Part shown: positions 28,872 to 33,250 of the stretch, one piece after another
Numbering within the stretch: position 1 is the stretch's first letter
How the letters are laid out: the number at the start of each line of letters is the position of its first letter
Assembly: GCA_947467315.1 (NCBI GenBank)
Contig: CANIID010000014.1
Span: forward strand, 1 to 33,881
Length of the DNA stretch: 33,881 nucleotides
Reading direction: 5' to 3'
DNA from: Betaproteobacteria bacterium
GTDB taxonomy: Bacteria > Pseudomonadota > Gammaproteobacteria > Burkholderiales > SG8-41
Notes under the pieces: generated by a model
Told to the model about the DNA's origin: nothing
What the model saw: the letters and a program-made list of their open reading frames with translations, nothing else
Databases searched by the model: none
Position numbers and translations under genes: made by a program

Positions 28872-28956
<85 letters not shown>

Positions 28957-29167: not shown

Positions 29168-29974
29168 ATGGCTGTCGATCACTACGAGAACTTCCCGGTC
29201 GCCTCCATCCTGTTGCCTGCGCGCTTTCGGCGTCCGGTCGGCCTGATCTACCGATTTGCGCGCGAAGCCGACGATTTTGCCGATGAAGGCGACCTGCAAC
29301 CCGCCCAGCGTCTGGCCCTGCTCGACAACTTTAACCATCAACTCGACCACATTGAATCCGGCAAGCCACCCGACATTGCGTGGTTCGCTGATCTCGCGGA
29401 CATCATCCGCGAGCACGGCTTGCCGCTACAGCTCTTCCGCGACCTTTTGTCCGCCTTCGCCCAGGACGTGGTCAAGGCCCGTTACACCAACTACCCCGAA
29501 GTACTCGACTACTGCCGCCGCTCGGCGAATCCCATCGGCCGGTTGCTGCTGGTACTGTATGGTGCCGCCACGCCGCAAAACAATGCGTGGGGCGACGCGA
29601 TCTGCTCCAGCCTGCAACTCATCAATTTCTGGCAGGATGTCGCCATCGACTATCGCAAAGATCGCATTTACTTCCCTCAGGACGAAATGACGCACTACGG
29701 CATCACCGAAGCGCAAATTGCCGATGCCACCACTAACGACACGTGGCGCGCATTCTTGAGGTTTCAGGTCAATCGCACACGGCAAACCCTGCATTCCGGC
29801 GCACCGCTGGGACGTGTACTCAAAGGCCGTCTGGGCCTGGAAATGCGCATGATTATCGCGGGTGGCGAGCGCATTTTGCGCAAAATTGAAACCGTCAATT
29901 ACGATGTATTTCAGCGTCGGCCCGTGTTGAAGCCGCATGACTGGCTGTTGATGCTGGCAAAATCGGCCTTCTGA
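29168..29974 (+). CDS. hpnC: Squalene/phytoene synthase family protein HpnC
   Basis: FAREADDFADEGDL and LQLINFWQDVAIDYRKDRIYFP Asp-rich motifs; adjacent to hpnD. Confidence 0.88.
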   Translation: MAVDHYENFPVASILLPARFRRPVGLIYRFAREADDFADEGDLQPAQRLALLDNFNHQLDHIESGKPPDIAWFADLADIIREHGLPLQLFRDLLSAFAQDVVKARYTNYPEVLDYCRRSANPIGRLLLVLYGAATPQNNAWGDAICSSLQLINFWQDVAIDYRKDRIYFPQDEMTHYGITEAQIADATTNDTWRAFLRFQVNRTRQTLHSGAPLGRVLKGRLGLEMRMIIAGGERILRKIETVNYDVFQRRPVLKPHDWLLMLAKSAF

Positions 29975-29975
29975 A

Positions 29976-30074
29976 ATGACGCCTGACGAATACTGCCAAC
30001 AAAAGGCCGTGCGGTATTACGAGCACAGCAACGATGCCAACTACAACGGTTCTTACACGGGAAGCGCGACGTGA
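29976..30074 (+). CDS. Candidate leader micro-ORF (32 aa) repeating the HpnD N-terminus
   Basis: ATG at 29976 two bases after the hpnC stop; MTPDEYCQQKAVRYYEHSNDANYNGSYTGSAT*; first 12 residues identical to HpnD; TGA overlaps hpnD GTG. Confidence 0.5.
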   Translation: MTPDEYCQQKAVRYYEHSNDANYNGSYTGSAT

Positions 30075-30904
30075 CCCCTGACGAGTATTGCCAGCAAAAA
30101 GCCGTGCAGAGTGGCTCCAGCTTCTACTACAGCTTCCTGTTCCTGCCGCCCGAACGCCGCCGCGCCATCACCGCGCTTTATGCCTACTGCCGCGAAGTCG
30201 ATGATGTGGTCGACGAATGCAGCGACGCCGGCGTGGCGCGCACCAAGCTCCTGTGGTGGCGCGAGGAAGTCGGCAAGCTCTACGCAGGCACGCCGCAACA
30301 CCCCGTCACCCAGGCGCTCGCGCCTGCGATCGCGGCCTACGGCATTCAGCAACAGCACATGCTCGAACTCATTGACGGCATGGCGATGGATCTCGACTAC
30401 AACCGCTACCCCGATTTCGATACGCTAAAACTGTACTGTCACCGCGTCGCCGGCGTGGTCGGCCTGATGTCCGCCAGCATCTTCGGCTACTCGGATAAGC
30501 AAACGCTGGAATACGCGCCCGAACTCGGCCTCGCGTTCCAGCTCACCAACATCATTCGCGACGTGGGCGAAGACGCGCGCCGCAATCGTATTTATCTGCC
30601 GCTCGATGAACTCGAGAAGTTCGGCGTGGTCGAAGGCGACATACAAGCCGCGCGCGAAAGTGAAAACTTCCAAAAACTGATGGCCTTCCAAATCGAGCGC
30701 GCACTCGCCCATTACGACAGCGCCTTCGCCAAACTTCCGGCAGCAGACCGCAAACCGCAGATTCCCGGCATCATCATGTCGGGAATCTATCGAACGCTGC
30801 TCGAAGAAATTCGCGACGACGGCTGCCACGTGTTAAAACAGCGTACTTCGCTCACACCGGTACGCAAGCTATGGATTGCGTTCAAAACGTGGTTGAAAGG
30901 TTGA
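30071..30904 (+). CDS. hpnD: Presqualene diphosphate synthase HpnD
   Basis: GTG start; SGSSFYYSFLFLPPERRRAITALYAYCREVDDVVDE; LTNIIRDVGEDARRNRIYLP. Confidence 0.93.
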   Translation: MTPDEYCQQKAVQSGSSFYYSFLFLPPERRRAITALYAYCREVDDVVDECSDAGVARTKLLWWREEVGKLYAGTPQHPVTQALAPAIAAYGIQQQHMLELIDGMAMDLDYNRYPDFDTLKLYCHRVAGVVGLMSASIFGYSDKQTLEYAPELGLAFQLTNIIRDVGEDARRNRIYLPLDELEKFGVVEGDIQAARESENFQKLMAFQIERALAHYDSAFAKLPAADRKPQIPGIIMSGIYRTLLEEIRDDGCHVLKQRTSLTPVRKLWIAFKTWLKG

Positions 30905-30905
30905 T

Positions 30906-32237
30906 GTGATAACCAGGCAAAAGATTTTCTTCCCGGCACTAATCACAGCGGCACTGACCCTGTTCGCGCTGCCGGTGCAACCGCAAACACCCGCCGCGCC
31001 TGCCACGCCTAACGTAGCAGCGCAGGCCGTCCCGCCAGCCACCTCGGAAAACGCCCGCGACGTGCTCGCAAGAGTTCGCCCGGCTGTCATCCAGATCAAA
31101 GGTTTTTTCGGCACCAACACCGCACAGGCTTTTCACGGCACCGGCTTCGCCGTGGCTGCGGGTGGCGTGTTCATGACCAACTACCACGTGGTCGCGCAGC
31201 AGGTGCAGTTTCCCGACAAATACCGGCTTGAATACCGCACCACCGACGGCAAGACCGGCCCTATCGCCGTACTCGCCGTCGATGTGCGCCATGATCTCGC
31301 CGTAGTACGCGCGACGGGCTACACGCCGCCGCCGCTGAAACTGGAAGACGTGCCGCCGGTGAAAGGCGAACGCGCCTACGCCATCGGTTTTCCGCTGGAT
31401 GTCGGCCTCACCATCACCGAGGGCGTATCGAACGGACGCGTCGAAGACTCTTTCGATCCGCGCATTCATTACTCCGGCGCAATCAACGGCGGCATGTCGG
31501 GCGGCCCTGCCCTCAATGCCGCAGGCGATGTGATCGGCGTCAATGTCTCCGGCTATCGCTTCGAGCAATTGGTCAGCTTTCTCGTCCCGGCGGAACACGC
31601 GCAGACACTGCTCGACCGCGCCGGCAAATCCACGCCGCGCGCGGGTGGATTCAAAAATGACGTCACAGCGCAAATGCGCGCCCACGCCAGCGCCCTGCTC
31701 GACGGGCTCAAGGGCGAGATGCTCACACAGCCCACCGCCGGCTATCGCCTGCCCGCCAAGCTCGCACCCTTTATCGACTGCAACGCCGCCGGTGACCCCT
31801 CTCCGCAACAGCCCGCGCAGTTGGTGCAAATCAGTTGTGCGGCCAAGGCGGGGCTGTATGTGCAACAAGGCCTTTACAGTGGCGATCTGAAATATTCCCA
31901 TTTCGTGCTGACCACCGACAAGCTGGATGCGTGGCGATTCGCACACCGGCTGTCTCAAATGGCGACCGCCACGGGCGCCTACGGCTCTCGACGGCACGTC
32001 GGCCCCTTCTCCTGTGAAAACCGCAACGTGCGCCTTAAAGGCTTCGACGCCAGCGTCATGACCTGCGTGCGCGGCTATCGCAAGCTCGAAGGGCTGTATG
32101 ACTTCACCGTGCGCGTGAGCAGCCTGAACAGTTCCAAGCGCGGATTTGCCAGCCACCTCGACATGTATGGCCTGGAATTTGACGCCGGCATGGCCTTCAT
32201 AAAACGTTACGTCGCCACGATGGAGTACACCCCATGA
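30906..32237 (+). CDS. Exported trypsin-like serine protease with uncharacterised C-terminal region
   Basis: GTG start, N-terminal hydrophobic signal; triad motifs TNYHVV, RHDLAVV, NGGMSGGPAL; no obvious PDZ motif. Confidence 0.82.
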   Translation: MITRQKIFFPALITAALTLFALPVQPQTPAAPATPNVAAQAVPPATSENARDVLARVRPAVIQIKGFFGTNTAQAFHGTGFAVAAGGVFMTNYHVVAQQVQFPDKYRLEYRTTDGKTGPIAVLAVDVRHDLAVVRATGYTPPPLKLEDVPPVKGERAYAIGFPLDVGLTITEGVSNGRVEDSFDPRIHYSGAINGGMSGGPALNAAGDVIGVNVSGYRFEQLVSFLVPAEHAQTLLDRAGKSTPRAGGFKNDVTAQMRAHASALLDGLKGEMLTQPTAGYRLPAKLAPFIDCNAAGDPSPQQPAQLVQISCAAKAGLYVQQGLYSGDLKYSHFVLTTDKLDAWRFAHRLSQMATATGAYGSRRHVGPFSCENRNVRLKGFDASVMTCVRGYRKLEGLYDFTVRVSSLNSSKRGFASHLDMYGLEFDAGMAFIKRYVATMEYTP

Positions 32238-33250
32238 GCGCGGAAACGGTACTGATCGAAATTCTCGGCAGCCACGGTCGCGTGCAGACACGCGAGCGTG
32301 TCCCCCTCACCGCCGAGCAACGCACGTTCACCATAGGACGCAGTGTGGCGGCCGATGTCACACTGGATGATGCGCACGCTGCTGCGCTGCATGCCACCGT
32401 GGAAATCACGCCGGACGGTAAAATCCTGGCAACCGATCTTGGCTCGGTCAACGGCATTGTGATTGCCGGTAAACGCCATCAGCAGGCGCAAGGTCTCGAA
32501 CTCCCCGATGGCACGCTGCAAATTGGCCGCACACATCTCAAGATTCGCACCACGCATGAAAATCTCGCGGCCGAAAAACCCCATGCGTTACAACCATCAT
32601 CCCTGCTGGGCGATCCGGCGTGGATCGCCGGCGCCGGCGCGCTCGCGTGCGGCATGCAACTGGCCTACTCCAGTTGGCTCGGCGCGCCGCGCGATCTGGC
32701 TATTGTCGTCGTCACCACGCTGATTTCCGGGGTGCTCGCAACGGGCGCGTGGGTGGCCTTCTGGGCAATGCTCACGCGCGTGATGCAGGGCGAATGGCGC
32801 TGGCTGCGGCATGCCGCGATCTTTCTGGGCATTGCCGCGATATTCGTAGCCATCGAAGCCCTACTGGAACTCGGCTGGTTCGTATTTTCGCTTCCGCAAT
32901 GGAGCACACGCACGGCATGGCTGGGCGCGATCGCCTTTGCCTGCGCCCTGTATCTGCATCTGATGCATGCCTCCAACCTGACAGCGCGCCGCGCGGCGCT
33001 GATCGCCTGCATCTTGCCGGCGCTGTCGGGCGGCGTCGGTCACTGGTTACAGGCACGCAATCAAATGCGCGACGTCAATCACATCGCCGCCAGCCTGCGC
33101 ATCTATCCACCGTCGCTGCGCCTGCGCGCGGCAGGCACCACCGAAGACTACTTTCACAGTACTGCCGCGCTGCGCGACGCCGTAGACAAAGCGCGTAAAG
33201 CCATACGCGCGGATGATGATGATGAAGACGAATCCGCCGACGACGAATAA
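32234..33250 (+). CDS. FHA-domain membrane protein
   Basis: N-terminal FHA-like TFTIGRSVAADVTLDDAHAAALHATVEI...TDLGSVNGIVI; then several hydrophobic segments; 4-bp ATGA overlap with protease stop. Confidence 0.82.
   Translation: MSAETVLIEILGSHGRVQTRERVPLTAEQRTFTIGRSVAADVTLDDAHAAALHATVEITPDGKILATDLGSVNGIVIAGKRHQQAQGLELPDGTLQIGRTHLKIRTTHENLAAEKPHALQPSSLLGDPAWIAGAGALACGMQLAYSSWLGAPRDLAIVVVTTLISGVLATGAWVAFWAMLTRVMQGEWRWLRHAAIFLGIAAIFVAIEALLELGWFVFSLPQWSTRTAWLGAIAFACALYLHLMHASNLTARRAALIACILPALSGGVGHWLQARNQMRDVNHIAASLRIYPPSLRLRAAGTTEDYFHSTAALRDAVDKARKAIRADDDDEDESADDE

Follow-up and report, generated by a model that had tools for sequence, protein, structure and literature searches.

The hpnC-hpnD junction of the window (the whole 33,881-nt stretch of DNA analyzed) raises the question of why the first 12 codons of hpnD occur twice there, once at the start of the gene and once at the head of a 32-codon micro-ORF lying between these two hopanoid-lipid genes of a betaproteobacterium (Table 1). 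The hpnC stop codon (TGA 29972–29974) ends one base before the micro-ORF ATG. Both 12-codon copies translate to (M/V)TPDEYCQQKAV. Re-reading of the sequence agreed with the original prediction that the copies differ, outside the start codon, at five positions, all third-position and synonymous, with no amino acid changes, and that the micro-ORF TGA overlaps the hpnD GTG as GTGA. The micro-ORF translates to MTPDEYCQQKAVRYYEHSNDANYNGSYTGSAT before its stop codon; the TPDEYCQQK peptide in this product has non-HpnD flanks (e.g., AVRYYEHSNDANY), and family searches gave no protein-family match for it.

Table 1. Features of the hpnC-hpnD junction, in window coordinates.
Feature	Position	Strand	Evidence
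hpnC (squalene synthase HpnC)	29168–29974	+	NCBIfam TIGR03464 above cut-off, E 2.4e-103
Micro-ORF, 32 codons plus TGA 30072–30074 overlapping the hpnD start	29976–30074	+	Sequence; equivalents elsewhere
Upstream copy of hpnD codons 1–12	29976–30011	+	ATGACGCCTGACGAATACTGCCAACAAAAGGCCGTG; pN/pS 0.02 across four congeners
Spacer tail, 59 nt	30012–30070	+	pN/pS 0.91, unstructured (z about +1.2), without known source
Conserved block ACGAGCAC(A/G)GC in tail	30019–30029	+	All four congeners
Shine-Dalgarno-like GGGAAG for hpnD, within the micro-ORF	30059–30064	+	Duplex energy -4.3 kcal/mol
Downstream copy, hpnD's own codons 1–12, GTG start	30071–30106	+	GTGACCCCTGACGAGTATTGCCAGCAAAAAGCCGTG
hpnD (presqualene diphosphate synthase), 277 aa	30071–30904	+	NCBIfam TIGR03465 above cut-off, E 1.1e-117

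Around the junction, a tRNA gene (28875–28956, minus strand; Rfam tRNA, 55 bits) lies between tig and hpnC. A Trypsin_2/HtrA-like protease gene (30906–32237, plus strand) begins 1 nt past hpnD, and its stop codon overlaps the start (ATGA) of an ORF at 32234–33250 (plus strand) that is FHA-like by eye. Together the genes have the look of a single compact operon in which hpnD is not followed by hpnE.

Within a 434-kb sample of the assembly that included the window, hpnD was the sole ORF among 387 with its start repeated just upstream, and the similarity of the upstream copy exceeded that in all 1520 shuffled-peptide controls. A chance origin of the repeat is therefore excluded. Across 750 genes, drawn from these contigs together with 80 related loci, copies with a start codon were found for hpnD alone; the remaining matches were low-scoring and had no start codons. 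A general habit of the genome was rejected, since no other gene among the 387, and then the 750, had a repeated start. A mobile repeat was likewise rejected, as the insert was single-copy in its own genome and in congeners; searches of the genus (14 genomes), G309 and G130 brought up no convincing further copies of it.

The same arrangement was present in three other species of the genus, G010, G001 and G002, at offsets of 95, 95 and 91 nt, with the micro-ORF products MTPDEYCQQKAVRVYEHGNNARHYGSCEAYAT, MTPDEYCQQKAVAEHEHGNLFMCCGTPEVFES and MTPDEYCRQKAVRCHEHGAQYCRCTSHAVRHDA, respectively, each followed by a stop codon. With the window, these made four carriers among the 13 congeners with hpnD, and the carriers are non-sister species. 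In non-carrier congeners the hpnD ATG mostly lay 1–13 nt past the hpnC stop, the place that the upstream copy occupies in the window. Exceptions were G013, with a 51-nt gap that may be a scar, and G007, with a different gap of 161 nt. Carriers did not form a clade on hpnD, tig or rpoB trees, and inheritance within a single clade was rejected on this basis. Being confined to four of 13 congeners that are not a clade, the arrangement is therefore dispensable, and its patchy distribution probably involves losses. Recent horizontal spread of one allele was also rejected, since divergence among the upstream copies was no lower than in the hpnD body. Absence from close relatives, which the original prediction had named as evidence against itself, was thus seen in part: most congeners are without the micro-ORF, but non-sister congeners and another genus have it.

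Using a 99.9th-percentile cut-off from shuffled controls, an upstream copy of the hpnD start was called in 12 of 152 distinct hpnC-hpnD junctions. Besides the four carriers of the window's genus, the set comprised G451, G033 and G449 (genus g2, same family as the window; products beginning VTPDEYCQPKAAGFYERSF, MPPDEYCQQKAAGFTSAAD and MKPDPYCREKAAGSYERAF, respectively), G026 (same family; a decayed copy whose start changed from ATG to AGG, RNPHRYYRRRAEKP to the stop), G309 and G146 (family f23), G130, and L100. The G146 micro-ORF encodes the 32-aa product MTPDQYRRYKQKHKVGTPKTERSLYFVNQYFR up to its stop, at an offset of 95. In all 12 carriers the start copy lay 91–116 nt before hpnD, never at a multiple of 3. 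Exact-pattern scans of 398–399 genomes of the order found copies confined to offsets 86–116, with no matches at offsets 29–85 or 117–171 in 398 order genomes. The leader start lay 1–48 nt (mostly 1–27) past the hpnC stop, as does hpnD itself in many non-carriers. Of the 12 carriers, seven or eight had the micro-ORF stop at +4 relative to hpnD, and two had it at +11. Outside family f1, conservation of the copy spanned only about 6–8 codons, and in several carriers the Shine-Dalgarno sequence before hpnD was weak. Among relatives, hpnC and hpnD overlap in some cases and are more than 200 nt apart in others, and the junctions hold numerous palindromic or repeat inserts that are unrelated (L011, L061, L063, L102 and others); the junction seems often to tolerate insertions.

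Constraint on the copied codons was measured in the genus, a sample of four metagenome-assembled genomes compared as non-independent pairs. Codons 2–12 of the upstream copies had undergone at least 13 changes, only one of which altered an amino acid (P 5.6e-7 vs. neutral). Over the pooled pairs (NG86) these codons were nearly saturated synonymously (pS 0.94, pN 0.019, ratio 0.02), and their synonymous divergence was no lower than that of hpnD (pS 0.56). The pN/pS was 0.0 for the hpnD start itself, 0.15 for the hpnD body and 0.91 for codons 13–30 of the micro-ORF, so that the shift from constrained to unconstrained sequence coincided with the end of the repeat. Between the two copies within a genome there were up to eight synonymous changes and at most one amino acid change. 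These patterns indicate that in the window's genus the start copy is held by selection on its peptide. The original prediction of selection on the peptide since duplication thus stands for the 12-codon copy and fails for the remaining tail. A leader peptide was one possibility suggested there, but without protein conservation in the tail the micro-ORF is no ordinary leader of 32 sequence-specific residues.

The spacer tails of the four congeners share the block ACGAGCAC(A/G)GC (10 of 12 columns identical; 0 of 20000 shuffles), and a related TACGAGCGC occurs at the same place in two genus g2 carriers. The shared block supports descent of the arrangement from one ancestor in the genus and, probably, in the family. 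Because it indicates that the upstream copies of the four congeners are homologous, the constraint on them postdates the duplication. Apart from this block, the tail reads as spacer. Shuffled tails kept an open frame 38–73% of the time, making the open tail only mildly unexpected. No RNA structure was detected in the genus, where folds were weaker than those of shuffled sequences in all four congeners (z +1.0 to +1.3), and an Rfam search gave no match except one tRNA; an RNA element or attenuator was rejected for want of structure and of an Rfam match to the leader. Derivation of the tail from hpnD was rejected for the four congeners, whose tails did not align with hpnD 37–160 (p 0.14–0.98); only the G002 tail weakly matched hpnC (p 0.04 and 0.03, uncorrected). 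A frame-shifted N-terminal extension of HpnD was rejected as well, because the offset class differs (95 vs. 91) and the hpnD frame of G010 is open for only 12 codons upstream. Carriers of other families (G130, L100, G309) had hairpin-rich spacers, terminator-like in G130 and G309, unlike those of the window's genus. Since the inserts of G309 (z -4.0) and G130 (z -2.5) form hairpins, not all carriers need be the same thing.

The arrangement is real, recurrent and selected in the window's genus, and a leader ORF is the best reading of it. The chances are about even that hpnD has in the micro-ORF a translated leader ORF, built from a duplicated hpnD start, which passes ribosomes on from hpnC to hpnD through termination-reinitiation. 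The hpnD 5' end would have been duplicated, with a short spacer coming to separate the two copies. On finishing hpnC, ribosomes would begin again after a single base, at ATG 29976, translate the 32 codons and stop at the TGA overlapping the hpnD GTG, on which those same ribosomes, or 30S subunits helped by GGGAAG, could then reinitiate; translation, restart after hpnC and reinitiation on hpnD are steps that we infer. Selection would retain the amino acids of codons 1–12, as observed for the genus, and not the tail peptide; on weaker evidence, it also appears to retain the open frame, the spacing of about 95 nt and the stop on the hpnD start. Coupling would account for these three features. The suggestion of a coupling device made in the original prediction gains from the recurrence, in eight of the 12 carriers, of a stop/start overlap consistent with translational coupling. 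The relay does not by itself account for the 12 frozen amino acids, because it needs no particular peptide. The residues of MTPDEYCQQKAV stay fixed although the codons for them vary freely, possibly through a role of the copied peptide itself or through recombination with insertion-free alleles.

The GTGA at 30071–30074 is the stop/start overlap expected of termination-reinitiation pairs. Like the pairs with ATGA/TGATG overlaps, the micro-ORF and hpnD are co-directed in an operon with the upstream stop overlapping the downstream start, and in tests on 14 pairs of other genes, overlaps of this kind gave strict coupling in 13 (Huber et al., 2019; PMC6728339). Unlike in those pairs, the upstream frame here is a 32-codon ORF with an unconserved tail and a start copied from the downstream gene, inserted between two genes that are close together in many relatives. 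Bacterial leader ORFs or uORFs are known from attenuator leader peptides such as TrpL, which the micro-ORF resembles in being short, translated-looking and placed just before a structural gene. It differs from TrpL-type leaders in having no conserved terminator/antiterminator hairpin or regulatory codon run, in conserving its N-terminus rather than a C-terminal stalling region, and in being flanked by a gene on either side instead of opening an operon.

One alternative to a functional leader is an insertion without function, in which the former hpnD start persists as the upstream copy after insertion of a spacer and a new start, and looks conserved because it was recently the working start or is refreshed by recombination with insertion-free alleles. 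This account is unlikely, though it fits several observations: the copy occupies the position at which hpnD usually starts, sisters of carriers are without it, and inserts at the junction are common and varied, including the hairpins of G309 and G130. The two copies of G309 (L114) are identical over 36–38 nt, including bases before the ATG, and its insert looks homologous, as judged by eye, to that of its congener G146 (L194). The simplest reading of the G309 copies is gene conversion between them, which may also have frameshifted the G309 micro-ORF. In the window's genus, however, the tails are homologous and the synonymous divergence of the upstream copies at least equals that of hpnD, so the state is old; moreover, conversion copies nucleotides, yet the copies within a genome differ in the synonymous manner given above. 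Decay of a tandem copy of the hpnD 5' end, functionless and named in the original prediction as the main alternative, is distinctly improbable and is disfavored in this genus, where the tails are unlike hpnD and the start copy has not decayed over near-saturating synonymous divergence. It agrees better with the decayed appearance of G026, G449 and G130 and with the tails of L231 and L100, which weakly resemble hpnD (p 0.003 and 0.03, uncorrected). The hpnD 5' end is indeed present twice in tandem, as in a partial tandem gene duplication, but the first copy is under protein-level selection over 12 codons and the intervening 59 nt in the genus are not hpnD-derived.

A small trans-acting peptide mimicking the HpnD N-terminus could compete for its recognizer (a partner enzyme, protease adaptor or targeting factor) and so tune the hopanoid pathway. 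What is copied and frozen is exactly the 12 N-terminal residues preceding the conserved SGSSFYY block; Tyr6 and Cys7 are invariant across 152 HpnD N-termini, although the broad, general HpnD model leaves out the first nine residues, these two among them. Such a peptide is nonetheless improbable: it has no known partner and no family match, its presence is patchy, and the unconstrained tail would make up 60% of it. Very improbable is synthesis of HpnD from both starts, with ribosomes that begin upstream hopping between matched codons to the downstream copy, even though both copies, and only they, are protein-constrained, the repeats are codon-matched and a conserved block follows the first. Programmed ribosomal bypassing is known from T4 gene 60, which likewise has codon-matched flanks around a short non-conserved stretch, but here the downstream copy has its own start codon, making a hop unnecessary, and neither a takeoff hairpin (z about +1.2) nor another recoding structure was found. 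No precedent for such a layout was found.

Searches of the open-access literature returned no leader ORF between hpnC and hpnD and no start-duplicating leader elsewhere. A tentative and rather unlikely extension of the leader-ORF reading is that the hopanoid operons of this order use leaders mimicking the gene start, in which the nascent or released HpnD N-terminal peptide, under selection, controls HpnD synthesis or assembly; a short ORF copying the N-terminus of the following enzyme would then arise repeatedly or survive from an ancient event. What normally marks a leader ORF is conservation at its C-terminus or in the RNA. In this case conservation lies in an exact protein-level copy of the N-terminus of the enzyme encoded downstream, to which a free spacer and an overlapping stop and start are joined, and in several families the arrangement recurs at a single gene. 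Provided that it is translated and functional, the arrangement would represent a simple route from partial gene duplication to a regulator or coupling device and would offer a way into studying the balance between the hopanoid enzymes HpnC and HpnD.
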